64,000 nucleotides of DNA from Sphaerolaimus hirsutus (lineage: Eukaryota > Nematoda > Chromadorea > Monhysterida > Sphaerolaimidae). The notes under the pieces are model-generated. The model ran no database searches and was not told where the DNA came from. It saw only the letters and a list, made by a program, of their open reading frames with translations. This document shows, piece after piece, positions 15,028-48,919 of the stretch. The translations under genes were made by a program, and so were the position numbers. Numbering within the stretch: position 1 is the stretch's first letter; every line of letters begins with the position of its first letter. Location of the stretch: assembly GCA_964036195.1 (NCBI GenBank), contig OZ038450.1, forward strand, positions 30,010,794 to 30,074,793, read 5' to 3'.

Positions 15028-15189
15028 GTATTACTGCGCTAAGAGGTGCACTCAGACATGTCCAGTACTGCACCAAACAAAGAAAATGTCATCCATAATA
15101 TGTTTGGAATTTGTGAAGCTGGATGGTAAGGGGGACACTCCTGACCAGGTCCAGTTCCAGTGCCAGTGCCAATATGAAATGCACCCTCA
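15028..15189 (+). CDS. Gene A exon 3: Cys-rich
   Basis: Acceptor GCTCAG, donor CCTCA|GTATGT. The frame, continued from exon 2, opens YYCAKRCTQTCPVLHQTKK and includes ICLEFVKLDG and a C-x-C-Q-Y pair near the end. It carries six Cys in 54 codons. The gene C exon (45,530-45,881) has the same 162 coding nt with about 75% residue identity, but is split by a MITE at TGTCCAG. Here TGTCCAGTACTG is uninterrupted, which gives the ancestral state. No family assignment. Confidence 0.8.
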
Positions 15190-17515: not shown

Positions 17516-17586
17516 ATTTGTAATCAGGATTCAGGTTTATCAATGAATGTTTGTTTGATGGCACTTAAAAAAAATTTATTATGCAG

Positions 17587-17654
17587 ACCTTGTGTGCCCC
17601 CTCCAACAACTTGGAATTTAGTTGAGCTGGATTATGAGTCAGCATGTGTTAAAG
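17587..17654 (+). CDS. Gene A exon 4
   Basis: Acceptor TTATGCAG, donor TTAAAG|GTATGT. It reads, after the phase-2 junction, PCVPPPTTWNLVELDYESAC then VK, ending in phase 1. Copies at 32,230 (identical coding sequence) and 46,700 (ACEPPATTWNLVEQEYEYSC) confirm borders and frame. Two Cys flank a Pro/Thr stretch. The next exon is the variable low-complexity domain. Confidence 0.8.
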
Positions 17655-17677
17655 GTATGTGCAATTTACCAGATATA

Positions 17678-18676
17678 CCGTATTTCCTCGAATTACCCCC
17701 CTCGAAATACCCCTCTCCCAATTGAGTGTAAAGAGAACGTCAATGACAAAAGCTATGGTATATGAACCGTGCAATGCATAACAGACGTTAAAAACAATGA
17801 TTCTGATACGTTAGAACATGGGATATACAATCTACATACTTATAAGGCTGTAGACTCTTATACATAGTGGTTTTTGTTGCATTTTTCTATGTCTGCGTAC
17901 GTTATTAGTAAAGTCGGCGGACATTTCACCCTACAAAATCGGAGAGTTAGAATTCGCTCGTGAATAGAGCGAACAACGAAACTTGTGTCGCACGCGGACG
18001 CTAGAAATTGAAAAAGAAAAAGAAGACGGAAGAAGATTTTAAAAAAATGGACGTTTCGCTGCGTCCGCGCGTGCCACGCCCTAGTTATCTACATTTTCAA
18101 CGTTGCTCGTAAAGAATTTGACCGTTCAAACTACCGTTTTACCGTTCAAACTACCGTTTCTGTTTTTATTTTTTTTTTCATTCGTTGGCTCCGTTCCAAC
18201 AGAAGAGAACTTGGCAGCCGGCCAAAATTTCGAAATCCGCTATTAATATGAATAAAATAGGCTCACAATAGCTATATAACCATGTATATAAACAAAAATC
18301 GCGATTATGAAGGTGGAAATTAGCAAAGCGGAGCAAATTTTAACGATTTTTAGCTAATTTTCAGTTTCCACTCCCATTTGTATAATACGCAACTGGTAAC
18401 TGGGATAAGGGCCAAGTTTTCATACGTGACCCGATCTATTCCAATGGTTAAAATATTGCGTCACAACTCACAATACCTAATGCCGTCATGCACTCTCCAC
18501 TGGAGAGATTGACGCAAATGTTTGTAGGGCGATACGTCTGCCGACTTTACTGGGCATTCAAAAAATTCCTGGCGAAAAAATACCCCCCCCCCTGGAATTA
18601 CCCCCCCTCGAAATACAATCCTCAAAGTTCTCACTTTGAAATAATAAACCACTGGGGGTATTTCGAGGAAATATGG
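17678..18676. mobile_element. CCGTATTT TA-element with nested insertion
   Basis: TA-flanked ends CCGTATTTCCTCGAATTACC and TATTTCGAGGAAATATGG. A second element (17,907-18,551) with inverted ends AGTAAAGTCGGCGGACATTT and GCCGACTTTACT is inserted in it. At the same position in A' only a 30-bp remnant is left (32,321-32,350). Confidence 0.8.
17907..18551. mobile_element. AGTAAAGTCGGC inverted-repeat element
   Basis: Ends AGTAAAGTCGGCGGACATTT and its imperfect inverse at 18,530-18,551 (ACGTCTGCCGACTTTACT). The interior has AGAGAACTTGGCAGCC...GGCCAAGTTTTCAT, also an inverted pair and shared with 56,954-57,165. Non-coding. Confidence 0.55.
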
Positions 18677-18839
18677 TACATACAGTATGTACATAGTTTC
18701 CCCTTTGTTGAATTTAAATAAAAGTTGTAAAAAAACATTATTAAACTCAGGGCATTAAGGGCCATTTTTACCCTCCACTGTCCCACCACCACTATCACCC
18801 CCTGCAAAATTCCCCAGTGAGAAAAATGGTTTTTCAGTA

Positions 18840-19145
18840 AACAAAGAATTTTGGTCCCTGACCAGTGCCAGATTCACTAATCACCCTGAGCTGAAATTTG
18901 GCATGCAAACTCACTAAGCGAAGAAGTACACACATGTTAAATTTGAGCCAAAACAAAATAAATTTACACACACCCCAAACAAATATTCATAGGTGTGTGT
19001 AACCGTGTTGCAGAAATTTTGTGCATGCAAATATGGTGTTAATTAACCTCATTTACATGCAATTAACCCATACACACCAATTACTGACTTTTGACAATTT
19101 TATTTTTTTGCCAGGGACCGGTCCCCGGCTGGGCCCTGTGTAAAT
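18840..19145. mobile_element. GGGACCGGTCCC element, short copy
   Basis: Contains CATACACACCAATTACTGAC, TTTTTTGCCAGGGACCGGTC, and the right end GGCCCTGTGTAAATAGCCC, all shared with the 4,787-7,039 element. In gene A intron 4; the corresponding A' intron has longer copies. Confidence 0.55.
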
Positions 19146-19392
19146 AGCCCATTTTTTCCAGTTGCCATAATTAATAAGATGTGTGTAAAAATGTGGCACA
19201 GGAGTAGCTAAGTGTTGCTCATGAAACTGAGGAAGCCAATCCTGATGATCATGTGATGCATAAAAAACCTTGGGACAGTGGAGGATATGTTTTGTCAAAC
19301 CTATGTTTTGTTAAAAAATTTTTTCGTTTGATCAACAATGCCATCTTTGTGTGGGGCTTCGGGGGGCTCTGAGGGTGTGGGTCCAAAAATAG

Positions 19393-20181
19393 TGTTCTTA
19401 AATTCTTCTCAGTCATCCAAAAAATACCCAAAAGTACCAAAAATTATAGGAGTACAACCCCCCAGAGGAGGGGGAGCTCCACTAACATATCCACAAGGAT
19501 TTACACGCCCACAACAACAACATCCTACTACAACAGCACCCCATCCACCGCAAAATAACGAATTTACTGAGGCATATAGAGCTCCGTCAACCACAGCACC
19601 TCAAACACTACCTGCAATCACCCAAATACCACAACCTCAGAAACCATACCCAGAACTTAAACCGATATTTAAACGAGGGCCGCAACAACCCCCTCAACCT
19701 CAACCTCAACCTCAACCTCAACCTCAAACACAACAACCTCAACCCCAACCCCAAACACAACAACCTCAACCCCAACCCCAACCTCAAACACAACAACCTC
19801 AACCTCAACCTCAACCTCAAACACAACAACCACACCCAAAACCAACATATTTTGCTACACTACCAATAACAGCATTCACAGTGCCATATACAACGCCATC
19901 CATAATCACACCTTCCTGTGAAGTGATTGAAGAGTTGCACAAAGTTCTTGATGGCTTCCATTCAGTTCTTGAGGGGTTGCAGTGCATGGAGTCATCAGGG
20001 AGCACTCCCAGACCCTGTAAAAAGTTATGTTAAATGTCAAATGTCATGTCAAGTGTCAAAAGTAATGGAAAATGCCTGGAAAACGGTCAATGTGCGTTAA
20101 CCATTTTCCAAGGCATTTAGCATGACATTTGACATTTTACAGGGAGTTTTATAGGGTCTGGGAGTGCCCCCTGGACTATTG
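19393..20181 (+). CDS. Gene A exon 5a: Pro/Gln-rich domain, split by a MITE
   Basis: The open frame gives KVPKIIGVQPPRGGGAPLTY, a Thr/Pro/His/Gln stretch, KRGPQQPPQPQPQPQPQ with QPQPQTQQ repeats (about 19,680-19,835), then CEVIEELHKVLDGFHSVLEG. The start is the weakest point: the phase demanded by exon 4 fits only a poor acceptor (CCAAAAATAG at 19,392). A MITE (19,999-20,170) interrupts the frame after MESS and introduces a stop. Without it the exon would end SSGLL at TTG|GTAATT in phase 0, as exon 5b requires. The domain occupies the place of the mucin-like exon of gene C. It is probably an extended, possibly glycosylated linker. Confidence 0.6.
19999..20170. mobile_element. CWG MITE inside gene A exon 5a
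   Basis: Inverted ends GGAGCACTCCCAGACCCTGT and ACAGGGTCTGGGAGTGCCCC lie between CAG (19,996-19,998) and CTG (20,171-20,173). Arms repeat TGTAAAATGTCAAATGTCAT-type units. Read through, it adds STPRPCKKLC then TAA. The same insertion is in A' (34,867-35,039), so it predates the split of the two copies. Confidence 0.8.
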
Positions 20182-20247
20182 GTAATTTTTATGTTCAAAT
20201 GAATAACCATCTTTGAATCCATTATAAATGTATTTCATTACACCCAG

Positions 20248-20331
20248 GATCAGAATGGTTCAAATTGTAATGAAACGACTATAACTACAACCACAGCTCC
20301 TTGGGAGGTTCTCGAAGACTATGGAATAGCT
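20248..20331 (+). CDS. Gene A exon 5b: APWEVLED end
   Basis: Acceptor TACACCCAG, donor ATAGCT|GTAATT, phase 0 at both sides. It reads DQNGSNCNETTITTTTAPWE then VLEDYGIA. The motif TAPWEVLED-(Y/F)-G-(I/V)-A also ends the mucin exon of gene C (48,880-48,919). Gene C thus has as one exon what gene A has as two. NCNET and NGS offer N-glycosylation sequons. Confidence 0.75.
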
Positions 20332-20825
20332 GTAATTTTTATGTTTATCTGTTAATGGTACATTAGCAGAGGAAAATGAGTAACAATAAACATGAGCAAC
20401 ATTTTAATACCAGGGCAACAATTCAAACATAACCAAATGTGAAAATTATCATTGAATCATAATCCTGAACACCTTGAATGTTCTCACCATACAATTTTCA
20501 AATATTTTTGTGTTTTGGCACTACTCCAATGTAATTTTTACCTGTTGTTCCATTGGAGGTTCTGTTCTATTCTACTTAGGCTGCCATTCTATTTTTGTAG
20601 GTAAAATGTGCCAAAACCAGTTTTTCTATTCTATGTACAGTTCTATTGGAAGTGTAGTTCTATTGGAGGTATGCAATTCTATGAGAATAAATATGGTAAC
20701 CTTTTGGTACTCATTAACTTGCTACCACATATAAGTAAGGCATTATCAGCTTGTTGTTGAGAGTTGTTAGAGACCTGCGTGTTCCCTGTGTACACAAATA
20801 TCTTGAAACACACGTTCAGCTACTA

Positions 20826-21279
20826 CCGTATTTCCTCGAAATACCCCCCCCCCCTCGTTTGACCCCCCCCCCCCCTCTCGAGACCACTATGAAACAATCA
20901 CCCTCCCCCCTCTCGAAATACCCTCCCCCCAGATTGAGTGTAAAGAGAACGTACATGCCAAATACTGCAGTTTGTGTTCTGCGTAGTGCAGAACACACAT
21001 TAAAACAATGTCGGAATCACGTTAGAACAGTGTTTATACTATCTACGATTCTACGTACTAATATTAGTCTACAGGAGTCTTTACATAACAGTTATTGATG
21101 CATTTTTCTACCCCAGCGCACATCACAAACAACGATTTTGTACTAGGATTTCAACAAATTTCTTGCGAAATAATACCCCCCCCTCGAAATACCCCCCCCC
21201 CTTGTTCAACCACCCCCCCCCCCCTCTCGGGAGCACTATGAAACAATCACCCCCGGGGGGGTATTTCGAGGAAATACGG
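20826..21279. mobile_element. CCGTATTT TA-element
   Basis: TA-flanked ends CCGTATTTCCTCGAAATACC and GGTATTTCGAGGAAATACGG, long C runs, and family motifs GAGACCACTATGAAACAATC and GAACGTACATGCC. It ends 14 bp before exon 6. The A' copy is 35,696-36,121. Non-coding. Confidence 0.85.
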
Positions 21280-21293
21280 TATATTCTACTCAG

Positions 21294-21416
21294 GATGTGA
21301 ATGCAACAAGTGGTACTGTCCTTAAAAATCTAGAAACATTTGCCGAGTGCCAGAAGGCATGTACAGCTGAACCTACATGCAAAGCATATTCACATGGAAA
21401 AGGTGGAAAAAGTACA
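21294..21416 (+). CDS. Gene A exon 6: PAN/apple-like, first half
   Basis: Acceptor TTCTACTCAG, donor AGTACA|GTTAGT, 41 codons in phase 0. The core LETFAECQKACTAEPTCKAY then SHGKGGKST, followed in exon 7 by VCVLMEQTRF, gives the C-x3-C-x6-C-x-A-(Y/F)...C-x-L pattern typical of PAN/apple modules, which bind proteins or carbohydrates extracellularly. The A' exon differs at two residues. The gene C exon (49,351) has four extra codons near its end. I am fairly sure of the exon and moderately sure of the PAN assignment. Confidence 0.8.
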
Positions 21417-21585
21417 GTTAGTTTGATTCCAGATTTTCACTCATTGATTTTGTGCATGAAGACTTTGTAGGTTTGAGAAAGTACTTATCAAAACCGTTTT
21501 AGTGTGAATAATTTAAAACAACAGCATACATTTATGGCAGGTATAGTGTGAGCACTGCCCACTTGGCATGCAGGTTTGATATCTG

Positions 21586-21777
21586 GTGGCAGTACCAAGC
21601 CCTGTAGAGTGTAAAGTGAAGTGTCAAATGTAATGTCAAATGCAAAGTAAACTGTCAACTGTCATGCAAAGTTCAGTAATAAAATCTTTTCTTTTTTGTT
21701 TTGATTGACACTTTACTTTGCATTTGACTTTACATTTGACAATTTACTTTACACTTTACAGGGCTTAGGATAGCCCC
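21586..21777. mobile_element. CWG MITE in gene A intron 6
   Basis: Ends GTGGCAGTACCAAGCCCTGT...ACAGGGCTTAGGATAGCCCC between CTG (21,583) and CAG (21,778). A' has the empty site GATATCAGTTGAG (36,413-36,425). Internally it repeats TAAAGTGTCAA and GTCAAATG units, and its ends differ from the ACTCCCAGACC subfamily. Confidence 0.75.
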
Positions 21778-21913
21778 CAGTTTAGTGTAAGAAGAAGCTC
21801 TGATGATAATTGTACTGTACATCTTCCTGGTGATGATATAATATTTCTGCTGATTTTTTATAAAGAATTGTATCACCACTATTTTATGGTATGTACTTGC
21901 ATGCTGATTCCAG

Positions 21914-22018
21914 GTGTGTGTCCTGATGGAACAGACAAGATTTGATGAACCAGAAAGCATGATAGATATTGGTAAACCAGCAATCAAAATGATGTTTAAA
22001 AATCTTGCAGGATTATTG
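21914..22018 (+). CDS. Gene A exon 7: PAN-like, second half
   Basis: Acceptor GATTCCAG, donor TTATTG|GTAATT, 35 codons in phase 0. It reads VCVLMEQTRFDEPESMIDIG then KPAIKMMFKNLAGLL. Its first Cys completes the PAN-like pattern of exon 6. The gene C counterpart runs 9 codons further to a TGG|GTAATT donor. In A' a stop follows soon after this donor, supporting the splice here. Confidence 0.75.
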
Positions 22019-22178
22019 GTAATTGACTTTCACTTTTATTTAAAAAAGTAACTTCATGAGCTTCAAAGTTTTTGGGGTTTCTGTTTGTTATCAAAAATGT
22101 ATTCTCTGTTTATAATAATTATGATGAATGTATTTTCAGTATTAAGTGTTAAGTTAAGAAAATATGTGTGCTAGGAAT

Positions 22179-22330
22179 CAGAGTTGCAAAAACGTGTTTA
22201 CATTTACCCGAAATACCCAGTTATTTGGGTATTTATACTTACGTTTACGTTTACGTTTTCCAAAAATACCATTACGCTTTGTTACGTTTTCCTGACACAA
22301 TTACCCGGGTACCAGAGAAAACGTAAAAAT
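22179..22330. mobile_element. hAT-type element, left end only
   Basis: CTAGGAAT|CAGAGTTG at 22,171-22,186, followed by inverted ACGTTTACGTTTACG arrays, matches the left side of the intact element at 36,832 and the family of 2,287. No right end is seen, so the element is truncated or diverged and its end coordinate is approximate. Confidence 0.5.
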
Positions 22331-22940
22331 CGTATGAAACACGCACAAAAACCATGCATTTTTTAACTTTTTCTGATATCACAAGTTACATGATGGAAGC
22401 GTGAATCAGCGTTCACAGTGCCATTAAGTTTTTGAATGAAATTTCAAATTGCAACCATGAAAACTATCTTGTGTGGCCACAACATGGTAGATTTAGTTGC
22501 AATATTTACTCAGTTTGTTTGTATCCATATTTAAAGCAACTTTTTCACAAAAACAGTGGTAAATAAGACGTTTGACCGATGGTAAGTGTGGTGCACAATT
22601 TATTCGTTTGTTTGTGGTGACTTCATCCATCAAAATACAGTAACATTTATTTCTTTTGTAACAAATTTTGCGGTACACCGTTTTTGTATCAGTTTACAAA
22701 CAATAGCTGACCAATTTGTAAGGTAAATTTGTGCACCAGATTATACCAGATTTATTCTAGTTCAAGGTTACCTCCTATTTATATTGGACACACAGATTCT
22801 ATTGGAAACATATTAATCTACTATTAATTAGAACCCCACCCCAGTACCCCACCCACCAATTAGTTTTTTTGTATTTAGGCACAAATTGTTTAGTTACAAA
22901 ATGTTCACAGATAGTTTTCTGAACTTTAACAAAAACCCAG

Positions 22941-23006
22941 ACACTACCACATCTGAAATATGGTGGGCTGTGCAATGGGCCACCGGAGAAATGTGGAGTC
23001 AAGTGA
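22941..23006 (+). CDS. Gene A last exon: CNGPPEKCGVK
   Basis: Acceptor AAAACCCAG; TLPHLKYGGLCNGPPEKCGV, then K and TGA. A second open frame crosses the same DNA, but differences between copies (AAA/AAG, CCG/CCA) are silent only in this frame. Phase 0 matches exon 7. Two Cys surround NGPPEK. No polyadenylation signal stands out immediately downstream. Confidence 0.7.
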   Translation, partial: TLPHLKYGGLCNGPPEKCGVK

Positions 23007-23347
23007 ATATTGTGACTATGATGAAAATGTGATTGATATTGGTTCAAAAATCTCTATAATGATGAATTGACTATTTTAGCAATGTTTTGTATATTGACGA
23101 AAATGAAATGAAATGAATGGATTACAATGGAAATAATAAATGGAAAAGTAACAAAAAATTTCAGCTCACAGGATAGTATGAGAATAGGGGTAAAAAGGTT
23201 GACCCCATAAGCGCACAATAGAGCCAAAAATACCTGAGAATAGGTGCTAAGGAACAATCACTAGTTTTTGAAGGTGAAAATGGGAAAAGCATGAAAATTG
23301 GTTATTTTGATCATAAATTGGCATAAAATAAGATATATCGACAACTG

Positions 23348-23539
23348 GGGGCACTCCCAGACCCTGCAAAAAGCCCTGTAAAATGTCAAATGTCATGCGA
23401 AGTGTCAAAGGTCATGGAGAATGCCCTGCAAAATGGAAAACGTACGTTTGCCATATTACTGGGCATTTTACATGACTTTTGACACCTTGCATGACATTTG
23501 ATATTTTACAGGGCTTTTTACAGGGTCTGGGAGTGGTAC
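23348..23539. mobile_element. CWG MITE 3' of gene A
   Basis: Ends GGGGCACTCCCAGACCCTGC-like and ACAGGGTCTGGGAGTGGTAC between CTG (23,345) and CAG (23,540). Arms TGTCAAATGTCATGC. It has a copy at 37,859-38,024. Confidence 0.75.
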
Positions 23540-23572
23540 CAGGTTTCATGTCGAGATTGGCCCAATGCAAAT

Positions 23573-24213
23573 AAGGCGTCCAATTCTAAAAGTCGACAAG
23601 ACCAAAATATGAAAATTTTAAGTTAGGCCCGGAAACGTCATCTGGGGCCACTCCCACACATTTTTCATAATTTTCCATAAATTGTTTGACCTCACATGCC
23701 CATATGGCAAAATGCCAAATTTGACATTTTTAGGGAAAAATGTGAAAAATTTGGGCAATAAGTTGACAAGTCCACTTAGTTTTGGGCTAAAAGTCGACAA
23801 GTCCACTTTCCGCAGCCCTTTTTTATGGGAAAAAACGCAAGAAATGTGATAAGTCCATCATGGACACCGATTTCTTAAAGTTGACAAGTCCATAAATTTC
23901 CCATAAGGGAAGCGCAACGCCGGCGGGAACAAAAATGTTCGCGAGTGCAAGAAGTCGATAAGTGAATTTTCCTCCCCAAAACAGTTTTGTTCTGTCCGGG
24001 TAGAATTTTATAGACACCCAATTTTTCCATTATACGTTGAGAGCAGGGGCTGAAAATTTGACACTTTCTTGTTGACATTTGGAATTCAATGTTGAGCATG
24101 AGAGAGCCCCATTGGACACGCACCACGGACCTGGAATTGGAAATGAAACTTAAAATGCGATTTACTCAAAATCACATTTTGTGGACTTCTCGACTTTTAG
24201 AATTAGACGCCTC
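23573..24213. mobile_element. GAGGCGTC element, TSD AAAT
   Basis: AAAT on both sides (23,569-23,572; 24,214-24,217). Ends AAGGCGTCCAATTCTAAAAG and CTTTTAGAATTAGACGCCTC, with internal AAGTCGACAAGTCCA repeats. The A' side carries the same insertion truncated at its right end (38,058). Confidence 0.8.
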
Positions 24214-27979: not shown

Positions 27980-29949
27980 TAGGGTGTCAAAAATTTTTTT
28001 TTTACGGAAAACGGAAAACGGAAAGGTAAAATTTTTTCACTTTACGGAAAACGGAAAACGGAAAGGTAAAAAAAAAAATTTCTGCTGGAAAACGGAAAAC
28101 GGAAAGGTAAAAAAATTCACTCGGCGGAAAACGGAAAACGGAAAGGTAAAAAAAAATTGTCGGCCGGAAAACGGAAAACGGAAAAATGAAATGCCGGAAA
28201 ACGGAAAACGGAAAGCAAAATTTGCACGGAAACGGAAAAAAAATAAAGTGAAATCAGCACGGTAATAGACAAATTTGCAGAAGGAAAACCTGCATGCAGG
28301 TTTGCCTGTTTGGCTTTGATTGTGGTAGCTGTACATTCTGCAACTATGGATGATGCCTGTAACTTCACTTGTAGTTCAAGCTTAACTGAACCAACAAAAA
28401 ATCATCAAAAAGTAGCCATAGTGGCCATAGGAAAGGAAACACGATGACAATTTCACAGTCTAGAAGCAGTGGGAATCACTGATGACCCCTATGCAATTGA
28501 TGACAACATTGCAGAGGAGATGATAATAAATAGCATAAAATTCAACAACAACAAACAATACTATATTGACTGGCCATATAAAGAGAATATCAGTGACCTG
28601 CCCATGGGAAAAGCAGAAGCCTTGGTGCGGTTTAAATCACTGATAAGAAGATTCAACAAAGATCCAAACTTATTTGAACAATACTGGAAAGTTTTGGATG
28701 ACCAACTAGAAAAGGGAATAATTGAGATCTGTGATGACAAAACAGACAACAAGGGGATTCATTACCTGCCACACCAGCCAGTAATCACGCTGGGCAAATC
28801 AACATCATGCAGAATCGTGTACGATGGGTCGGCAGGTAAGCCCAGTTTCAACGAGTGCCTTTTTAGAGGAGCAATTACAACACCATTAGCACTGGGCCTA
28901 CTCCTGAGGTTCAGGGCAGGCAATCTAGCATTAATTGCCAATATTGAAAAGGCATTTTTGCAAATAGGATTGCATGACCAAGCTAGAGACTACACACGAT
29001 TTTTCTGGCTGAAAGATGCCTCAAAACCAGTAACTGAAAATAACTTAATAGTACTTTGTTTTAAACGCGTACTGTTTGGACTTGTCTGCAGCCCAGCAAT
29101 TTTGGGAGCAGTCATAAAATACCATTTAAATGTGACAATAAACAACATGAATGAATATGAAGAAAATGAAGGGGAACAAAACCAGTTGGCGATGATAATA
29201 AACAACATTTACGTTGATAACTTCATCATGAGTGTCAGGAATGAAGTTGAAGCTTTAGAACTATATTACAAAGTCAAAGCTTTTTTTAACCAATGTTCTA
29301 TGAACATGAGGGAATGGCTGTCAAACTCCAGATCAGTCATGAATGAAATAGCAGAAAATGACAGGAGTCCAAAGGTGAATAAAATTGTCGCAATAATGGG
29401 CATGAAATAAAATCACCGAACGGACATGCTGGCAATATCAACACCAAAATTGCAAATTGACAGCATCACAACACCAACCAGATGAAACTTGAATAAATTA
29501 TTGGTGTCAGCATATGACCCAATTGGGTTCACAGCACCTGTTTCACTGACCCTGAAATCCCAGTTGTCAATGCTGCTCCAAGAGACAAAAACAACACATG
29601 GAATGAGCCAATTGAAGATAAATCAGATTGGAAAAACAATGGAAAAATGCCAGAAAACTGAAAATTGAGCCAGAAAATGGAAAAATGGCCTGGTAAAACA
29701 GAAACGGAAAGGTAAAAATTTTTCAGCCGGAAAACGGAAAAATGGGCCGGAAAAACGGAAACGGAAAGGTAAAAAATTTTCAGCTGCCGGAAAATGGAAA
29801 ACGGAAAGGTAAAAATTTTTTGGCTGCCGGAAAACGGAAAACGGAAAGGTAAAAATTTTTCGTCTGCCGGAAAACGGAAAACGGAAAGGTAAAAAATTTT
29901 CCTGCGGAAAGGCGGAAACGGAAAACGGAAACGGAAATTTGACACCCTA
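27980..29949. mobile_element. hAT-type element carrying a BEL/Pao pol fragment
   Basis: Ends TAGGGTGTCAAA...TTTGACACCCTA with 8-bp duplications GTACTGAT (27,972-27,979) and GTACCGAT (29,950-29,957). The matching sequence at 43,535-43,560 reads AGAAGTACCGATCTACAAC without it, an empty site. Both flanks of the interior are GGAAAACGGAAAGGTAAAAA arrays, and the middle (about 28,260-29,625) is retroelement pol sequence. Relatives: 38,658-39,289, 41,947-42,197 and the left end at 60,609. Confidence 0.9.
28448..29600 (+). pseudogene. BEL/Pao reverse transcriptase fragment
   Basis: The 313-codon open frame (28,469-29,410) contains LEKGIIEICDD, HYLPHQPVITLGKS, RIVYDGSAGKPSFNECLF, ALIANIEKAFLQIGLHDQAR and RVLFGLVCSPAILGAVIKYH, the order and spacing of the Pao-type reverse transcriptase. 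The catalytic motif is YVDN where YVDD is expected. Homology extends upstream through a TGA at 28,445 (FHSLEAVGITDDP) and downstream past TAA at 29,408 (YDPIGFTAPVSL). Protease, RNase H and integrase are not present, and no LTRs flank it. It is a dead fragment within a hAT element; the hAT could have captured it or been its landing site. Confidence 0.85.
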
Positions 29950-31119: not shown

Positions 31120-31319
31120 NNNNNNNNNNNNNNNNNNNNNNNNNNNNNNNNNNNNNNNNNNNNNNNNNNNNNNNNNNNNNNNNNNNNNNNNNNNNNNNNN
31201 NNNNNNNNNNNNNNNNNNNNNNNNNNNNNNNNNNNNNNNNNNNNNNNNNNNNNNNNNNNNNNNNNNNNNNNNNNNNNNNNNNNNNNNNNNNNNNNNNNNN
31301 NNNNNNNNNNNNNNNNNNN
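31120..31319. other. Assembly gap, 200 N
   Basis: Exactly 200 undetermined bases, probably a placeholder length. Sequence after it resumes at the equivalent of 15,217, just past gene A exon 3. The left side ends within the AAGGGTGTGC element equivalent to about 44,180. Any A' exons 1-3 and C' exons after the first would have to lie in the missing DNA. Confidence 0.98.
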
Positions 31320-32229
31320 TGTATTCACATTGATTTTGACAATATTTAGAAGCAATTATGTAAAATTGTGATCATTACAAAGTCAACAGTTTTTACCGTA
31401 CATTGTTGAATACAGAAAAATTGTACCAAAAAGTTCTGGATGAGTATCCTGCCAGTTTTATATAGTATTCTAGCCATCATTCTCAATATGCATAACCATA
31501 TTACCTCAAAGTGTAGACATACCCTTCAATAAAAGGTACCTCTAATCAGATGTGTAATTTTTTGCCTTTTTGAATGTGATGAAATAAATAATAGGCATCC
31601 TTAAAAATGACAAAGATGCCAAAATGCATGAAATTAAGAAAATAGTGACCAAACATGGCAGACAATTATGAAAATGATGCCGAAAGGGCACCCAGATAGA
31701 TCACTAAGCATAAATTTTTGTTAGGTCTGACTGATCCACCATTTTGTTACATTTCATATGAATTATAAATTGAATTGAGTGGTTATTTGTGATTGGTTGA
31801 ATGTTTGTGGAATCTACCAAAATAATAGCGTGTAGAATCTACCGAAATAATAGCCTACAATAGGAGTAAATATGCTATCTTCATTATCCAATACATAAAA
31901 CCTTCTTCTAATTCATAAAAACACAGTAATAATCTCCTTTCCATTCTCATTCATCCCCTCATACAGCAAAATTTGAAGCCTTTTATTAATGTCTCATAGT
32001 ATTTAAAAAATTTTACCTCAACATCCACATAGAAAAATCAAAGTGTATGTGCACTCCAGACTCCACCCTATTTTCTACCAAGCATATCTTTGCAATAATT
32101 CCAGATGATACAAACAGCTACAAACACAGTGACCAACATTTGCACTCAGTTGTAACCACATTTGTAATCAGGATTCAGGTTTATCAATGAATGTTTGTTT
32201 GATGGCACTTAAAAAAATTTATTATGCAG

Positions 32230-32297
32230 ACCTTGTGTGCCCCCTCCAACAACTTGGAATTTAGTTGAGCTGGATTATGAGTCAGCATGTGTTAAAG
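32230..32297 (+). CDS. A' exon 4
   Basis: Identical in coding sequence and borders to gene A exon 4 (PCVPPPTTWNLVELDYESAC). Preceded by the same intron 3 sequence without the GAGGCGTC element. Confidence 0.75.
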
Positions 32298-34190
32298 GTA
32301 TGTGCAATTTACCAGATATATCGTATTTCCTCGAATTTCCTTGAATATGGTACATACAGTATGTACATAGTTTTCCCTTTGTCGCATTTCAATAAAAATT
32401 GTAAAAAACATTATGAAACTCAGGACATTAAGGGCCATTTTTACCCTCCACTTGTCCCACCACCACTACCACCCCCTGCAAAATTCCCCAAAATTACTGA
32501 TATTGGCCAATTAACCCATGTTCAAACAGATTGTGAACTGATTGTGAATTTTGATTGAAATTGCTAAAATCATGATTTTCCAATTTCTGGACATGATCTT
32601 GTTGTTTGTCCAGCCCATTTGCACGGCTATTTACATAGGCCCCGGCCAGGGACTGGTACCCGGAAAAAAGAAGTATTTTTCAAAAGTCAATAATTGGTGT
32701 GTATTATTGCATGGTTGTTTGCATGCTAATTTGGTTAAGATTAACCCAATAAACCCAATTAACATGCAAACAACCCATACACACCAATGATTCACTTTTG
32801 AAAAAAATTATTTTTTTTTGCCTGGGCATGGACCGTTCCCTGGCTAGGGCCTCTGTAAATAGCCCATTTGCACAAGTTACACAGTTCATCAACCAATGAA
32901 CCATGTAGGTTTAAAAAAATGAATAGTGCCCACATACAATGGGCACTGACATTTTATCATTTGCGTAATGGCAATGCAGGCATCAGACAAGCTTTTAGGA
33001 AATGTTGTTTTTCCACAGCATCATTTTTTCAGCTATTTACACAAGTCCCGGCCGGGGACCGGTCCCGGGCAAAAAATTAAAAATTTCCAAAAGTCTATAA
33101 TTGGTGTGTATGGGTTGTTTGCATGTTAATTAGGTGAATTATCACCAAGTTAGCATTCACAAAATTTTTGCAAGACAGTTACATGCGCTGATGCATTTTC
33201 TTTGGGGGAATGTATAATTTTTTTTGGATTTGTCTGAATTTTGGCATGCGTGTACTACTTTGCTTAGTGAGTTCGAATGCCAAATTTCAGCTGAGGGCGA
33301 TCAGTGAATCCTATTTTATTAACTTTAATTTTCATCAATCACTATTTTTGTAAAGTGATCGAAATCCTGCCGGGGACCAGTTCCCGGCAATGTCGAAATG
33401 GCTCCAACCGGGGTCAAATGTCCCTGGTGAAAAAAATTTTTTTTCAGTAAACAAAGAATTTTGGTCCCCAACCAGGGACGTTCATCCCCTGCAGGGAACT
33501 AAAAACTTGTCCCCTGCTGGGGGACGAACGTCCCCAGTCGGGGACAGAAAATTCTTTGTTTACTGAAAAATTTTTTTCTCACAGGGTACGTTTGACCCTG
33601 GTTCGGGCTATTTCGACATTGCTGGGGACCGGTCCCTGGCAGGATTTCGATCACCATACAAAAATGCAGTGATCGATGAAAATTAAAGTGTAAATAAAAT
33701 AGGATTCACTAATCGCCCTGAGCTGAAACTTGGCATGCGAACTCACTAAGCGAAGAAGTACACACATGCCAAATTTGAGCCCAATATAAATAAATTTACA
33801 CACACCCCAAAAAAATATTCATGGGTGTGTGGAACCGTGTTGCAGAAATTTTGTGCATGCAAATATGGTGTTAATTAACCTTTTGACAATTTTAATTTTT
33901 TGCCAGGGACTGGTCCCTGGCCGGGCCCTGTGTAAATAGCCCATTTTTTCCAGTTGCCATAATTAATAAAATGTGTGTAAAAACGTGGAACAGGAGTAGC
34001 TACGTGTTGCTCATGAAACTGAGGAAGCCAATCCCGATGATCATGTGATGCATAAAAACCTTGGGACAGTGGAGGATATGTTTTGTCAAACCTATGTTTT
34101 GATAAAAAAATTTTTTGTTTGATCAACAATGCCATCTTTGTGTGGGGCATCTGGGGGCTCTGAGGGGGTGGAAGAGTTGCAGGATGTTGC
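32298..34190. other. A' intron 4 with transposon pieces
   Basis: Contains the 30-bp TA-element remnant (32,321-32,350). A Pro-rich stretch at 32,430-32,490 (YPPLVPPPLPPPAKFP in one frame) is out of frame by one base in the gene A copy, so I do not call it an exon. Also present: GGGACCGG-family pieces at about 32,625-32,865 and 33,030-33,945, the latter with GGGGACGAACGTCCCC palindromes. Confidence 0.5.
32321..32350. mobile_element. 30-bp remnant of a CCGTATTT TA-element
   Basis: TA|TCGTATTTCCTCGAATTTCC then TTGAATATGG|TA stands where gene A has the 999-bp element 17,678-18,676. Both terminal segments survive and the whole interior is missing. Confidence 0.7.
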
Positions 34191-34212
34191 CATCTTCAGT
34201 GTCCAAAAATAG

Positions 34213-35050
34213 TGTTCTTAAATTCTTCTCAGTCATCCAAAAAATACTCAAATGTACCAAAAATTACAGGAGTACAACCCCCCAGAGGAGGGGGAGCTCC
34301 ACTAACATATCCACAAGGATTTACACGCCCACAACAACAACATCCTACTACAACAGCACCCCATCCACCGCAAAATAACCAATTTACTGAGGCATATAGA
34401 GCTCCGTCAACCACGGCACCTCAAACACTACCTGCAATCACCCAAATACCACAACCTCAGAAACCATACCCAGAACTTAAACCGATATTTAAACGAGGGC
34501 CGCAACAACCCCATCAACCTCAACCTCAACCTCAAACACAACCCCCTCAACCTCAACCTCAACCCCAACCTCAAACACAACAACCTCAACCTCAAACACA
34601 ACCCCCTCAACCTCAACCTCAACCCCAACCTCAAACACAACAACCTCAACCTCAAACACAACCCCCTCAACCTCAACCTCAACCTCAAACACAACAACCA
34701 CACCCAAAAACAACATATTTTGCTACACTACCAATAACAGCATTCACAGTGCCATATACAACGCCATCCATAATCACACCTTCCTGTGAAGTTATTGAAG
34801 AGTTGCACAAAGTTCTTGATGGCTTCCATTCAGTTCTTGAAGGGTTGCAGTGCATGGAGTCATCAGGGAGCACTCCCAGACCCTGTAAAAAGCTCTGTAA
34901 AATGTCAAATGTCATGTAAAGTGACAAAAGTAATGGAAAATGCCCTGGAAAATGGTCAATGTGCGTTAACCATTTTCCAAGGCATTTTGCATGACATTTG
35001 ACATTTTACAGGGAGTTTTACAGGGTCTGGGAGTGCCCCCTGGACTATTG
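34213..35050 (+). CDS. A' exon 5a: Pro/Gln-rich, split by a MITE
   Basis: Same structure as gene A exon 5a, including the weak AAAATAG acceptor and the MITE at 34,867-35,039. The Gln/Pro array is rearranged: here TQPPQPQPQPQPQTQQ blocks repeat, whereas gene A has longer PQPQ runs. Reading through, the frame stops at 34,917 inside the MITE. Confidence 0.6.
34867..35039. mobile_element. CWG MITE inside A' exon 5a
   Basis: Orthologous to 19,999-20,170, between CAG (34,864) and CTG (35,040). Confidence 0.8.
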
Positions 35051-35117
35051 GTAATTTTTATGTTCAAATTGAATAAACATCTTTGAATCCATCATAAACG
35101 TATTTGATTACACCCAG

Positions 35118-35201
35118 GATCAGAATGGTTCAAATTGTAATGAAACGACTGTAACTACAACCACAGCTCCTTGGGAGGTTCTCGAAGACTATGGAATAGC
35201 T
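35118..35201 (+). CDS. A' exon 5b: APWEVLED end
   Basis: Same borders and 28 codons as gene A exon 5b with one residue change (TTVT for TTIT). Confidence 0.75.
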
Positions 35202-35695
35202 GTAATTTTTATGTTTATATGTTAATGGTACATTAGCAGAGGAAAATGAGCAACAATAAACATGAGCAATATTTTAATACCAGGGCAACAATTCAAACGT
35301 AACCAAATGTGAAAACTATCACTGAATCATAATTCTGAACACCTTGAATGTTCTCACCACACAATTTTCAAATATTTTTGTGTTTTGGCACTACTCCAAT
35401 GTAATTTTTACCTGTTGTTCCATTGGAGGTTCTGTTCTATTCTACTTAGGCTGTCATTCTATTTTTGTAGGTAAAATGTGCCAAAACCAGTTTTTCTATT
35501 CGATGTACAGTTCTATTGGAAGTGTAGTTCTATTGGAGGTATGCAATTCTATGAGAATAAATATGGTAACCTTTTGGTACTCATTAACTGGCTACAAAAT
35601 ATAAGTGAGGCATTATCAGCTTGTTGTTGAGAGTTGTTAGAGACCTGCGTGTTCCCTGTGTACACAAATATCTTGACACACGCGTTCAGCTACTA

Positions 35696-36121
35696 CCGTA
35701 TTTCCTCGAAATACCCCCCCACCTCGAAATACCCCCCTCGTTTGACCCCCCCCCCTCTCGAGACCACTATGAAACAATCACCCCCACTCGAAATACCCCC
35801 CCCAGATTGAGTGTAAAGAGAACGTACATGCCAAATACTGCAGTTTGTGTTCTGCATAGTGCAGAAGTGTTCTACGTTTAGAACAGTGTTTATACCATCT
35901 ACGTACTAATATTAGTCTACAGGAGTCTATACATGTCAGTTATTGATGCATTTTTCTACCCCAGCGCACATCACAAACAACGATTTTGTACTAGGATTTC
36001 AAAAAAATTCTTGCGCAATAATAACCCCCCTCGAAATACCCCCCCCTCGTTCAACCCCCCCCCCCTTCTCGGGAGCACTATAAAACAATCACTCCCCGGG
36101 GGGTATTTCGAGGAAATACGG
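35696..36121. mobile_element. CCGTATTT TA-element (A' copy)
   Basis: Counterpart of 20,826-21,279, TA-flanked, shorter because C runs and one internal segment differ. Confidence 0.85.
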
Positions 36122-36135
36122 TATATTCTACTCAG

Positions 36136-36258
36136 GATGTGAATGCAACAAGCGGTACTGTGCTTAAAAATATAGAAACATTTTCTGAGTGCCAGAAGGC
36201 ATGTACAGCTGAACCTACATGCAAAGCATATTCACATGGAAAAGGTGGAAAAAGTACA
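36136..36258 (+). CDS. A' exon 6: PAN/apple-like, first half
   Basis: 41 codons, phase 0, donor AGTACA|GTACGT. Differs from gene A by L/I and A/S around NIETFSECQKACTAEPTCKA. Confidence 0.8.
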
Positions 36259-36559
36259 GTACGTTTGATTTCAGATTTTGACTCATTAATTTTGTGCATG
36301 GAGACTTTGTAGGTTTGATAAAAGTACTTATCAAAACCGTTTTAGTGTGAATAAAAAAACACACATTTATGGCAGGTATAGTGTGGGCACTGCCCACTTG
36401 GCATGCAGGTTTGATATCAGTTGAGTGTATGAAAAAGCTGTGATGATAATTGTACTGTAAATACATCTTCCTGGTGATGATATAATATTTCTGCTGATTT
36501 TTTATAAAGAATTGTATCACCACTATTTTATGGTATGTATTTGCATGCTGCACTTCCAG

Positions 36560-36664
36560 GTGTGTGTCCTGATGGAACAGACAAGATTTGATGAACCAGA
36601 AAGCATGATAGATATTGGTAAACCAGCAATCAAAATGATGTTCAAAAATCTTGCAGGATTATTG
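36560..36664 (+). CDS. A' exon 7: PAN-like, second half
   Basis: Same 35 codons as gene A exon 7, donor TTATTG|GTAATT. Without splicing here the frame meets TAA seven codons later. The intron before it lacks the MITE present in gene A. Confidence 0.75.
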
Positions 36665-36831
36665 GTAATTGACTTTCACTTTTATTAAAAAAAGTAACTT
36701 CATGAGCTTCAAAGTTTTTGGGGTTTCTGTTTGTTATCAAAAATGTATTTTCTGTTTATAATAATTATGATGAATGATGAATGTATTTTCAGTATTAAGT
36801 GTTAAGTTAAGAAAATATGTGTGCTAGGAAT

Positions 36832-37089
36832 CAGAGTTTGAGAAGTGACATAGGTAAGCAATAATGTGATAGTATTTGCAGAGAAATGCTTACAAAAGCA
36901 AAAACAATAGTGTTTTGCAATGCATCTAATCATGGGTGCACTTCAAATTTTAATTACATTTACGTTTTTTTACGTTTACCCAGGTATTTTAGAAGTATTT
37001 ACATTTTCAGTATTTATACTCAAAATTTAGGCGAGGTATTTACGTTTACGTCTACGTTTTCCAAAAATACCAGTATTTGAACAACTCTG
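36832..37089. mobile_element. hAT-type MITE, TSD CTAGGAAT/CTAGAAAT
   Basis: Ends CAGAGTTTGAG...CAACTCTG with 8-bp flanks CTAGGAAT (36,824) and CTAGAAAT (37,090), one mismatch. GTTTACGTTTACG-like subterminal repeats place it with 2,287 and 22,179. Confidence 0.75.
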
Positions 37090-37453
37090 CTAGAAATTTG
37101 CTGGCTGCTTTTACTCATCTCCTTGAGACTAAACTAACCTAAGTGAACTGTGGGCATATTATGAACCAGCAGGATTTGCCTCTGTTCTGTACCTTCACTC
37201 AGGTTTTGAAATGTTCTTTAGTTTCACACATCTTAACAGACATAGTCACCAGATTATACCAGATTTATTCTAATTCAAGGTTACCTCCTATTTCTATTGG
37301 ATACACACATTCTATTGGAGACATATTATTCTACTAATTATTAGAACCCCACCCCAGTACCCCACCCACCAATTAGTTTTTGTATTTAGGCACATAAATT
37401 GTTTAGTTACAAAATGTTTACAGATAGTTTACTGAACTTGAACAATAACCCAG

Positions 37454-37519
37454 ACACTACCACATCTGAAATATGGTGGGCTGTGCAATGGGCCACCAGA
37501 GAAATGTGGAGTCAAGTGA
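37454..37519 (+). CDS. A' last exon: CNGPPEKCGVK
   Basis: Same 22 codons and borders as gene A's last exon, ending TGA. Closes the A' copy. Confidence 0.7.
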   Translation, partial: TLPHLKYGGLCNGPPEKCGVK

Positions 37520-37858
37520 ATATTGTGACTATGATGAAAATGTGATTGATATTGGTTCAAAAATCTCTATAATGATGAATTTACTATTTTAGCAATGTTT
37601 TGTATATTGATGAAAATGAAATGAAATGAATGGATTACAATGGAAATAAAAAATGGAAAAGTAAAAAAATTTCAGCTCACAGAATAGTATGAGAATAGGG
37701 TAAAAAGGTTGACCCCATAAGCGCACAATAGAGCCAAAAATACCTGAGAATAGTTGCCAAGGAACAATCACTAGTTTTTTGAAGGTGAAAATGGGAAAAA
37801 GCATGAAAATTGGTTATTTTGATCATAAATTGGCATAAAAAAGATATGTCGACAACTG

Positions 37859-38024
37859 GGGGCACTCCCAGACCCTGCAAAAAGCCCTGTAAAATGTCAA
37901 ATGCCATGCGAAGTGTCAAAGGTCATGGAAAATGCCCTGCAAAATGGAAAACGTACGTCAATTTTGACACCTTGCATGACATTTGACATTTTACAGGGCT
38001 TTTTACAGGGTCTGGAAGTGGCAC
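37859..38024. mobile_element. CWG MITE 3' of A'
   Basis: Counterpart of 23,348-23,539, between CTG (37,856) and CAG (38,025), with part of one arm deleted. Confidence 0.7.
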
Positions 38025-38057
38025 CAGGTTTCATGTCGAGATTGGCCCAATGCAAAT

Positions 38058-38656
38058 GAGGCGTCCAATTCTAAAAGTAGACAAGTCCAAAATATGAAAA
38101 TTTTGAGTTAGGCCTGGAAACGTCATCTGGGGCTACTCTCGCACATTTTTCATAATTTTCCATAAATTTGTGACCTCGCATGCCCATATGGCAAAGTGCC
38201 AAATTTGACATTTTTAGGGAAAAATGCAACAAATTTGGGCAAGAAGTCGACAAGTCCACTTAGTTTTGGGCTAAAAGTCGACAAGTCCACCTTCCACAGC
38301 CTTTTTTATGGGAAAAAACGCAAGAAATGTGATAAGTCCATCACGGACACCGATTTCTAAAAGTCGACAAGTCCATCAATTTCCCATAAGGCAAGCGCAA
38401 CGCCGGCGGGAACAAAAATGTTCGCGAGTGCAAGAAGTCGATAAGTGCATTTTTCCCCAAAACAGTTTTGTTCTGTCAGAGTAGAATTTTATAGACACCC
38501 AATTTTTCCATTATACGTTGAGAGTAGGGGCTGAAAGTTTGACACTTTATTGTTAACATCTGGAACTTAATGTTGAGCATGAGAGAGCCTCATTGGACAC
38601 GCACGCACCACGGATTTGGAATTGGAAATGAAACTTAAAATGCGATTTACTCAAAA
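38058..38656. mobile_element. GAGGCGTC element, right end lost
   Basis: Left end GAGGCGTCCAATTCTAAAAG after AAAT (38,054). It matches 23,573-24,213 until TTTACTCAAAAT, then joins directly to a hAT relic. A deletion probably fused the two. Confidence 0.75.
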
Positions 38657-38657
38657 T

Positions 38658-45292: not shown

Positions 45293-45365
45293 CTGGCAGT
45301 GGGAGAAAGCTATCAATGATTGATTACACTGGTGGTATTTGTGATCAAAAATACTTCATAAGCGT
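45293..45365 (+). CDS. Gene C exon 2
   Basis: Acceptor TTAATTTCAG, donor AGCGT|GTGAGT. SGSGRKLSMIDYTGGICDQK then YFIS, phase 1 to phase 2, one codon shorter than gene A exon 2. Confidence 0.75.
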
Positions 45366-45529: not shown

Positions 45530-45881
45530 GTATTACTGTTCTAAGAAGTGCACTGAAGCATGTCCAGGTGTCACTCCCAGACCCTGTAAAAAGCCCTGCA
45601 AAATGTCTAATGTCATGCAAAGTGTCAAAAGTCATGGAAAATGCCCTGCAAAATGGTAACGGAGTCGCCATTTTGCAGGGCATTTTTCATCACTTTTGAC
45701 ACTGCATCACATTTGACATTTTACAGGGCTTTTCACAAGGTCTGAGAGTGCCCCCAGTACTGCACAAGACAAAGAAAATGTCAGCTATAATATGTTTGGA
45801 ATTTGTGAAGCTGGATGGTATGGGAGACACCCCTGACCAAGTAAAATTCAAATGCAAATGCCAATATGAAATGTATCCTCA
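45530..45881 (+). CDS. Gene C exon 3, interrupted by an intron-like MITE
   Basis: Coding parts are 45,530-45,567 (YYCSKKCTEACP) and 45,758-45,881 (VLHKTKKMSAIICLEFVKLD and on to CKCQYEMYP), donor CCTCA|GTATGT. Together they are 162 nt, exactly as in gene A exon 3. The 190 nt between would shift the frame and stop it at a TAA in the MITE if retained. Removing GT(45,568)...AG(45,757) restores TGTCCAG|TACTG, the gene A sequence. Confidence 0.75.
45568..45754. mobile_element. CWG MITE acting as a candidate new intron
   Basis: Ends GTGTCACTCCCAGACCCTGT...GGTCTGAGAGTGCCCC between CAG (45,565-45,567) and CAG (45,755-45,757). Gene A has a single CAG at this site (15,063-15,065). The element begins with GT, and the duplicated CAG on its right supplies AG behind a CCCCC tract. 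Almost all of it folds back on itself, around GCCCTGCAAAATGG and its inverse. The donor GTGTCA is weak apart from the CCAG before it. Confidence 0.8.
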
Positions 45882-46699: not shown

Positions 46700-46767
46700 G
46701 GCTTGTGAACCACCTGCAACAACTTGGAATCTTGTTGAGCAGGAATATGAATATTCATGTGTTAAAG
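46700..46767 (+). CDS. Gene C exon 4
   Basis: Acceptor ATTATACAG, donor TTAAAG|GTAGGT. ACEPPATTWNLVEQEYEYSC then VK. Same length (68 nt) and phases as gene A exon 4. Confidence 0.8.
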
Positions 46768-47030
46768 GTAGGTGCCATCAACTGGACGAACAGTAAATAT
46801 GTCAATAGTGTATTTTACCATAGTTGAATTTGAATAAAAACTTCAAATGTTACTATGATGTTTTCTAGTTTCAATTTTATAATAGGGTTGATTACATCAT
46901 TGGGTCATGCCGAGTGATGTCAAATGCAACAAAACATAAACCAAACCACGTTGACACTTGTGTCATTCCATAGAAGGGCATCTGGGACTTTGGGCTCTTG
47001 CAAAGGATGACACCAGCACCAAAAGCCCAG

Positions 47031-47253
47031 GGGGTAGTCCCAAGCCCTGTAAAGTGTAAAGTAAAATGTCAAATGTAAAGTCAAATGTAGAGTAAAGTGT
47101 CAATCAAAACAAAAAATAAAATATTTTATTACTGAAATTTGCATGACAATTGACAGTTTACTTTGCATTTGACTTTACATTTGACACTTTACTTTGCATT
47201 TGACTTTACATTTGATACTTTACTTTACACTTTACAGGGCTTGAGATTGCCAC
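47031..47253. mobile_element. CWG MITE in gene C intron 4
   Basis: Ends GGGGTAGTCCCAAGCCCTGT...ACAGGGCTTGAGATTGCCAC between CAG (47,028) and CTG (47,254). TAAAGTGTAAAGT-type repeats as in the 21,586 copy. Confidence 0.75.
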
Positions 47254-47396
47254 CTGGCAAACAGTCCAACTGGCACTGCCTGATGTTATTAATGTTCCAA
47301 AAAAAGTTGAAAATTATATTTCACTGTCTCTGTGTAGATAGACCTTACCACTTTGTTTATTCTAGTAAGGAATTCATGATAATATTTTGTGTATAG

Positions 47397-48919
47397 GTAG
47401 ACATGGCCGCAGTAGAAGGGCACCACATTATCGTCGACATCATTGGCAACATCGTGGACGTCATCGGCAACGAGGGTACCAAAAACGACACCCACTACAT
47501 CATCTTACTCAAAAGCGCATACATCATCATAGACGTCTTCGTGGGCATCATGGGAGAATTATTGGTATAAATCATGGTAGAAATAATGGTATAAATCATG
47601 GTAGAATTATTGGTATAAATCATGGTAGAATTATTGGTATAAATCATGGTAGAAATAATGGTAGATATCATGGTAGAATTATTGGTATAAATCATGGTAG
47701 AATTATTGGTATAAATCATGGTAGAATTATTGGTATAAATCATGGTAGAATTATTGGTATAAATCATGGTAGAATTATTGGTATAAATCATGGTAATAAT
47801 AATGGTAGAAATCATGGTAAAAATCAACAAAAGCATCATCATACAACAACATCACCTACCACTGTACCTACAACATCATCCACAACAAAGCCCACAATGT
47901 CACCCACACCACTATCCACGACAACACCCACAACATCATCCACAACATCATCAACAACAACACCCACAACATCATCCACAACATCATCAACAACTACTCC
48001 TACAACATCATCAATAACAACACCCACAATATCATCCACAACATCATTGACAACTACTCCTATAACATCATCCACTACATTTTCAACAACTACTCCTACA
48101 ACATCATCAATAACAACACCAACAATATCATCCACAAAATCATCAACAACTACTCCTACAACATCATCCACTACATCATCAACAACTACTCCTACAACAT
48201 CATCAATAACAACACCAAAAATATCATCGACAACATCATCAACAACTACTCCTACAACATCATCCACTACATCATCAACAACAACACCCACAACATCATC
48301 CACTACATCATCAACAACAACACCCACAACATCATCCACAACATCATCAACAACAACACCCACAACATCATCAACAACATCATCAACAACAACACCCACA
48401 ACATCATCCAGGATATCATCCACAACAAAACCCACAACATTGCCCACAACATCATCAACAACAACACCCACAACATCATCAATAACAACACCAAAAATAT
48501 CATCGACAACATCATCAACAACTACTCCTACAACATCATCCACTACATCATCAACAACAACACCCACAACATCATCCACTACATCATCAACAACAACACC
48601 CACAACATCATCCAGGATATCATCCACAACAAAACCCAAAACATTGCCCACACCATCATCAACAACAACACCCACAACATTGCCCACAACATCATCAACA
48701 ACAACACCACCAACATCATCCACAACATCATCCACAACATCATCAACAACAACACCCACAACATCATCCACAACATCATCAACAACAACACCATCGACAT
48801 CATCCACAACATCATCCACTACATCATCAACGCCATCATCTACTACAACATATATTACATCTTTACCACTCTCCACTACCACTGCTCCCTGGGAGGTTCT
48901 TGAAGACTTTGGAGTTGCG
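47397..48919 (+). CDS. Gene C exon 5: basic repeat plus mucin-like domain
   Basis: Acceptor GTGTATAG, donor GTTGCG|GTAAGT, 1,523 nt, phase 1 to 0. It opens with a His/Arg/Gly-rich segment (GRHGRSRRAPHYRRHHWQHR). Next are about ten octapeptides RIIGINHG (47,555-47,800) encoded by a 24-bp repeat. About 300 residues of TTTPTTSSTTSS-like repeats follow, then TTTAPWEVLEDFGVA. The Thr/Ser/Pro part is typical of heavily O-glycosylated mucin domains. The basic part is unlike gene A, so the centre of the protein has been replaced while both ends are conserved. A 347-codon minus-strand frame is a shadow of the repeat. Confidence 0.8.

Follow-up and report, generated by a model that had tools for sequence, protein, structure and literature searches.

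The origin of new introns is an old problem, to which introners are the leading answer. The problem is raised by a 64,000-nucleotide stretch of the genome of the nematode Sphaerolaimus hirsutus (contig OZ038450.1, positions 30,010,794 to 30,074,793; hereafter, the window), in which exon 3 of one gene, gene C, is split by a foldback element, while the homologous exon of gene A is uninterrupted. Did this insertion break gene C, or did it become an intron? We consider it very probable that the insert belongs to an introner family, that is, a non-autonomous DNA transposon that becomes a spliceosomal intron upon insertion. This assessment is based on the anatomy of the sequence, the target duplications, the empty sites, the restoration of the reading frame and a strand bias at other genes.

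The element is 187 bp long (45568-45754, forward strand, like all gene C features below) and splits exon 3 at 45567/45758, with CAG on either side. The left part of the exon (45530-45567, 38 nt) aligns to positions 15028-15065 of the gene A exon and ends in the left CAG of the target duplication (45565-45567), in keeping with the CWG duplications found in the family. The right CAG (45755-45757) is the proposed 3' splice site, and the right part of the exon (45758-45881) also aligns to the gene A exon. The element is oriented with its donor-bearing A-end, GTGTCACTCCCAGACC, first and its B-end, GGTCTGAGAGTGCCCC, last. It can fold upon itself almost from end to end, the arms 45562-45619 and 45703-45760 being 83% complementary and the arms 45621-45656 and 45668-45703, 94%. 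This foldback is far beyond chance: the predicted DNA fold has an energy of -71.1 kcal/mol (z -15.5), and none of 200 shuffled sequences was equally stable.

Exon 3 of gene A (15028-15189, forward strand) is the uninterrupted homologue, or empty site, and contains a single CAG, within TGTCCAGTACTG. Excision of 45568-45757 from gene C, 190 nt including the right CAG, left 162 nt that were open in the gene A frame, with 79% amino-acid identity to gene A. The proposed intron (45568-45757) would thus run GT...AG in codon phase 1. Retention of the element shifted the frame and led to a stop after 30 codons, inside the element. The initial annotation had described a 187-bp foldback between CAG copies, an uninterrupted gene A exon with one CAG, return of the 162-nt exon upon removal of GT...CAG, and a frameshift with a stop upon retention; its coordinates and parts were reproduced, and all of these features were borne out. 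As a small correction, the piece spliced out would be 190 nt.

Copies of the element across the genome

A first genome search yielded 3,166 candidate places, of which 40 were scored. The family was then described from two samples. The best-match sample comprised 42 loci (L002-L043, the top matches to the gene C query), some of which represented one place on both strands; removal of 8 duplicates and of 1 locus in which no ends were found left 33 unique copies with both ends. The positional sample comprised the first 40 of 100 listed places, out of 1,038, along one contig; these gave 30 unique copies bounded at both ends, besides 4 duplicates and 6 places in which no right end was found. The right-end finder used for the positional sample was loose (element lengths 125-258), so that the right triplets there (CAG in 19 of 30) are less certain.

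The two ends of the element are unlike: one starts GTGCCA, whereas at the other, GTGCCCC runs into the right triplet. Exact 22-base end patterns were found at 1,038 places following CAG and at 912 following CTG, a small excess for CAG (p 0.005); reversed control patterns did not occur. With the GTGCCA end placed first, the triplets flanking the 33 best-match copies were CAG/CAG in 15, CTG/CTG in 9, CTG/CAG in 5, CAG/CTG in 2, and CTG/TGG and CCG/CCG in 1 each. Identical CWG triplets in direct orientation were thus present on both sides of 24 of the 33 copies. The notion that CWG forms part of the inverted repeat, suggested by four window loci with inverted triplets (two of this family and two of its relatives), was dropped in view of these direct repeats. 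Assignment to hAT or Transib was also dropped, no 8-bp or 5-bp duplications being seen by eye. In 7 of the 33 copies, the two triplets differed at W, which seems to be more than mutation alone should give; conversion from one hairpin arm to the other is one possible source. Immediately upstream of the left triplet, C was present in 19 of 33 copies, and immediately downstream of the right triplet, G was present in 18 of 33, indicating a CCWGG-like target. An exact 20-mer of the element end was absent from the viral and prokaryote collections searched.

These properties make the two orientations of the element unequal. With the GTGCCA end upstream and a CAG target, the insertion reads CAG|GTGCCA ... 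GTGCCCCCAG| and forms a potential GT-AG intron, the removal of which would restore the original message. In the reverse orientation, the element starts GGGG, and there is no donor at the boundary. The majority sequence has at least one stop in each of the three frames, and an unspliced copy in an exon would therefore truncate the protein.

Copies inside other genes were sought with Pfam. The flanks were joined without the element and one triplet. For each direction, the longest frame that crossed the junction, trimmed to about 45 residues on each side, was searched at E <= 0.01; the sense segments of L038 and L085 (15 and 14 residues) were excluded. With the donor end first, 8 of the 33 joined segments of the best-match sample had a match, to sulfate transporter (L029), guanylate cyclase (L003), uridine kinase (L009), IBR (L034), WD40 (L025), Amnionless (L012), Kelch (L042) and PAX (L002) domains, as did 3 of 29 from the positional sample, to carnitine acyltransferase (L089), cadherin (L080) and LRR (L055). 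The E-values of the 11 matches ranged from 6e-17 to 5e-4, where about 0.6 chance matches are expected for 62 segments at 0.01. Six passed the curated Pfam cut-off (L029, 6e-17; L089, 2e-16; L003, 4e-16; L009, 4e-13; L080, 5e-10; L055, 6e-9). Seven spanned the junction itself (L003, L009, L012, L025, L029, L042 and L089), three of them under the cut-off (Amnionless, 4.5e-5; WD40-type, 1e-4; Kelch, 2e-4), and the other four lay beside it. The interrupted places are at C4:15016775-15016974 for uridine kinase, C225:39913-40109 for the sulfate transporter and C1:11818398-11819148 for carnitine acyltransferase.

In the opposite direction, there were no Pfam matches among 34 joined flanks of the best-match sample or 30 of the positional sample. 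The strand bias, 11 of 62 versus 0 of 64, was significant (Fisher p 2.5e-4; p 0.002 for the best-match sample alone). The right triplet was CAG in 10 of the 11 Pfam-matched copies, as compared to 20 of 33 in the whole best-match sample. Retention led to a stop inside the element in all nine copies for which this was tested (gene C and the eight matched copies of the best-match sample). Pfam supported an exon at 3 of the 40 places of the positional sample. Extrapolated to the 1,038 ends that follow CAG, this would give some 80 such exons, a figure with a wide interval that also depends on a method that misses most short fragments. Two copies, L079 and L080 (C1:7358425-7360488), lie 1.3 kb apart in the same direction in cadherin-looking coding sequence, of which Pfam supports only L080.

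The uridine kinase gene offers the clearest case among the interrupted genes. Its exons were located with a human sequence as guide and read by eye. The element, which starts GTGTCA like the copy in gene C, breaks codon 214 (AG|G, arginine) within a near-invariant block, KYADVIVPRGEENVVAIN. The spliced product would be free of gaps at the junction when compared with 10 animal homologues chosen from the 120 listed; the named uridine kinase matches among these 120, of 1,379 in all, came from animals and were 57-67% identical.

The features by which introners are recognised in DNA were therefore found together: elements in unrelated genes that are similar up to the splice sites, insertion into previously uninterrupted coding sequence, and the hallmarks of target-site duplication (TSD) and terminal inverted repeats (TIRs). 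Sense copies elsewhere in the genome lie in conserved exons, the frame being returned on excision. Together with the CWG duplications and the GT end, these copies support the claim of a transposon-made intron in an animal gene.

Alternatives to a transposon-made intron

Several observations weigh against reading the insert in this way, and they concern its splice signals, the copies in other genes and the constraint on its host exon. Splice sites were scored with human-type matrices. The donor at 45568 (CAG|GTGTCA) scored 4.82 bits, which places it among the best 7% of the window's GT sites, as compared to 1.99 for the 3' donor of exon 3 itself; the earlier description of GTGTCA as a weak donor was thus not upheld. 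The acceptor at 45757 scored 1.98 bits, similar to the acceptor of exon 3 (2.14), but this is a modest value that 23% of the AGs in the window reach, and stronger AGs are present within the element, at 45678 and 45726. Among the 191 GT-AG pairs at gene C, 50 keep an open frame. The pair 45568/45757 gives back exactly the gene A exon, but 45568/45739 is also in frame, scores higher and adds six residues, and 45568/45748 keeps the frame as well. The fallback of the initial annotation, GTAAAA at 45586 with TTTTACAG at 45726, is not among the open-frame pairs and is less likely in gene C. Furthermore, exon 3 is phase-symmetric at 162 nt, so that skipping it would preserve the frame too.

Splicing of the gene C element is predicted from DNA, and these signals would also allow exon 3 to be skipped, or cryptic sites within the element to be used, giving a shorter or a longer gene C protein. 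We consider this outcome unlikely. Although the exon length, a multiple of three, the in-frame pairs and the higher scores of some internal AGs would permit it, the exon is conserved between genes A and C, with a ratio of nonsynonymous to synonymous divergence (Ka/Ks) of about 0.16 (Ka 0.091, Ks 0.572), and at uridine kinase the extra residues from cryptic sites would fall in the invariant block.

The copies in other genes also include some that do not fit readily. Five of the 11 Pfam matches (PAX, IBR, Amnionless, WD40 and Kelch) were under the curated cut-off, and the positional sample alone had no significant strand bias (3 of 29 versus 0 of 30, p 0.11). Four coding-looking sense exons identified by eye (L007, L015, L026 and L040) have CTG/CTG triplets and no AG at the junction. 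Such CTG/CTG copies could be spliced at GGGAG|TGCCCC, which lies six bases within the element; the frame would be preserved and the protein would gain three residues. Similarly, the Kelch-type exon of L042 (C6:14915300-14915900), one of those under the cut-off, has CCG/CCG and no junction AG; if this gene works, it needs a different 3' splice site. If a Harbinger/NuwaI-type transposon seeded introns in this genome, the few sense copies in which CTG or CCG stands in place of CAG would point to the use of other 3' splice sites or to failed introns.

Alternatively, a plain insertion may have broken gene C, so that one of more than 30 paralogues is dead or dying. A genome search with the exon-3 peptide gave 48 matches at E <= 10 and 36 at E <= 2.5e-5, of which 21 lie on the same contig as the window; no inference was drawn from the 12 weaker matches, some partial and some with stops. 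In 35 of the 36 (gene A included), the alignment started at residue 1 and reached at least residue 49, uninterrupted and free of stops, and gene C was the sole partial match. This supports gain rather than loss, and the insertion in gene C is taken to postdate its split from gene A. In so large a family, with 35 other exon-3 matches at this threshold, the loss of one copy should be tolerable. At 14 of 187 aligned sites (7.5%), the gene C copy departs from the 189-bp majority sequence derived from 25 copies, the highest value among the 26 compared; the word recent in the original claim of a recent intron gain therefore calls for caution.

The state of gene C argues for a different outcome. Outside the element, its exon 3 has no indel or stop relative to gene A, and the modelled exons 2 to 5 are open: exon 2 (45293-45365) has a tblastn match to gene A at 14531-14599, with AG before it and GTGAGT after; exon 4 (46700-46767) has matches at 17591-17656 and 32234-32299; and exon 5 (47397-48919) encodes a Thr-rich, mucin-like tail in open frame, its end at GCG|GTAAGT being a guess. 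When the differences between genes A and C in exon 3 were polarised with six paralogues, 3 replacement and 2 silent changes fell on the C branch and 6 of each on the A branch, with 2 replacement and 4 silent changes ambiguous. Counting the ambiguous changes, the C branch has 3-5 replacements versus 6-8 on the A branch and has not evolved faster. An exon free of constraint since the insertion would be expected to have gained about 8 to 10 replacements, an estimate from 129 sites and the 7.5% divergence of the element. Constraint after the insertion is thus likely, but the evidence for it is only suggestive, which counts against an intron. The same arrangement, with the donor first only, recurs in conserved genes, among them uridine kinase and carnitine acyltransferase. 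On balance, even with a copy so far from the majority sequence, a simple disruption of the gene seems quite unlikely.

It could also be a coincidence that target duplication, frame and splice sites match in gene C. The genome is rich in this element, with nearly 2,000 exact ends, about half of them after CAG, and some copies should be exonic by chance. Chance gives no strand bias, however, whereas 11 of 62 versus 0 of 64 segments matched Pfam in the two directions and 10 of the 11 had the AG of the right triplet in place; we regard coincidence as very unlikely. It is logically possible, but extremely improbable, that the exon was split from the start and became continuous in gene A and the remaining paralogues through intron loss. 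This would require loss in 35 uninterrupted exon-3 copies, whereas the supposed intron is an entire mobile element that has a target duplication of its own and is present at many other sites.

Other features of the window

Four further copies of the gene C element are present in the window, all on the forward strand. One, at 23348-23539, ends CTG...CAG and has a shortened counterpart at 37859-38024 in a duplicated segment; another, at 19999-20170, ends CAG...CTG at the end of the gene A open frame, with a counterpart at 34867-35039 in the duplicated gene B. These four copies represent two duplicated loci, giving three independent insertions in the window. At 19999-20170 in gene A and 34867-35039 in gene B, the open frame runs into the element and stops inside it. 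The C-terminus of the gene A and gene B proteins may therefore be derived from the transposon, unless splicing avoids the element.

A related, more diverged foldback family, with the interior TGTAAAGTG..., is represented at 47031-47253, in the intron preceding gene C exon 5, and on the complement strand at 21585-21778 and 8454-8540. The first two have CWG at both ends, and the end at 8540 is loosely CWG-like. Inverted CWG triplets (CAG...CTG or CTG...CAG) were observed at 23345-23542, 19996-20173, 47028-47256 and 21585-21778.

The duplication involving genes A and B is large (15214-24188 and 31320-38657). No match to exon 2 or 3 was found for gene B, whose homology starts beside a run of N at 31120-31319; these exons may be hidden in this assembly gap. 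An open frame at 28448-29407 has a reverse transcriptase match just under the Pfam cut-off, and its protein relatives carry domains that we take to be of BEL/Pao type, which fits an animal host. The gene A/C protein had no homologue in the protein collection when a 101-residue query from exons 2-4 was used, a search limited to proteins of similar length that could miss longer relatives, and none in viral contigs. The exon-3 peptides of genes A and C matched no Pfam family, and there was no Rfam match within the window.

Proposed mechanism and relation to known introners

In the proposed mechanism, a transposase would cut a CCWGG-like target and duplicate CWG. Where the element landed at CAG with its GTGCCA end upstream, the left CAG and the GT of the element would form the donor CAG|GTGCCA, and the right CAG would provide the acceptor. 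Splicing would then remove the element together with one CAG, leaving the messenger RNA (mRNA) unchanged. The sequence C/AAG|G is classically termed the proto-splice site, and we infer that CCAGG overlaps it. It is reasonably probable, in our view, that a transposon of the Harbinger/NuwaI type seeded dozens to hundreds of introns in this one animal genome, at a CCWGG/CAG target that coincides with the proto-splice site, in which case the preference of the transposase, not splicing, could set the places of introns. The genome offers many insertions with inferable empty sites, in one orientation that is capable of forming an intron and one that is not. A target motif equal to the proto-splice site, combined with this contrast in orientation, would make the birth of introns, their strand bias and their failures directly measurable in an animal.

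Among algae, the introner elements of Micromonas and Aureococcus (Huff et al. 2016) reportedly resemble miniature inverted-repeat transposable elements and share splice-site duty with the TSD; they are said to differ from the present element in host and in TSD length. Introners made by DNA transposons are established more broadly, and in a survey, 175 of 3,325 genomes contained introners (PMC9860276, Gozashti et al. 2022). In that survey, introners are rare in animals: those found among animals and land plants came from two groups only, both of them animals, copepods being named; introners were short, non-autonomous and repeated, some with TIRs and TSDs, and enriched in genes; and in most families, splicing leaves the length of the mRNA unchanged (PMC9860276). 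The Chrysochromulina introners, as described there, carry the 5' splice site and co-opt the 3' site, as proposed here, but have a 4-bp TSD and no TIR, whereas the present element has a 3-bp CWG TSD, a CCWGG-like target and an animal host (PMC9860276).

Among the literature matches listed, which did not extend to subscription papers, there was no Harbinger- or CWG-type introner in an animal. An animal setting in which introner transposons with weak splice sites have reportedly been invoked is that of the tunicate Fritillaria (PMC13326754); the introns proposed here are GT-AG, which sets them apart from those of Fritillaria. With respect to the transposon itself, CWG duplications are the defining feature of the NuwaI group among the PHIS (PIF/Harbinger-related) elements, and this group is reported from animals only (PMC4482050, Han et al. 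2015). The present element shares the CWG target duplications and the animal host, its empty site being gene A. NuwaI TIRs usually start GGG (PMC4482050), like the GGGG of the B-end here and unlike the GTGC of the A-end, and the element described here differs further in that its 189 bp are too short for a transposase and in that 7 of 33 copies have unequal W.
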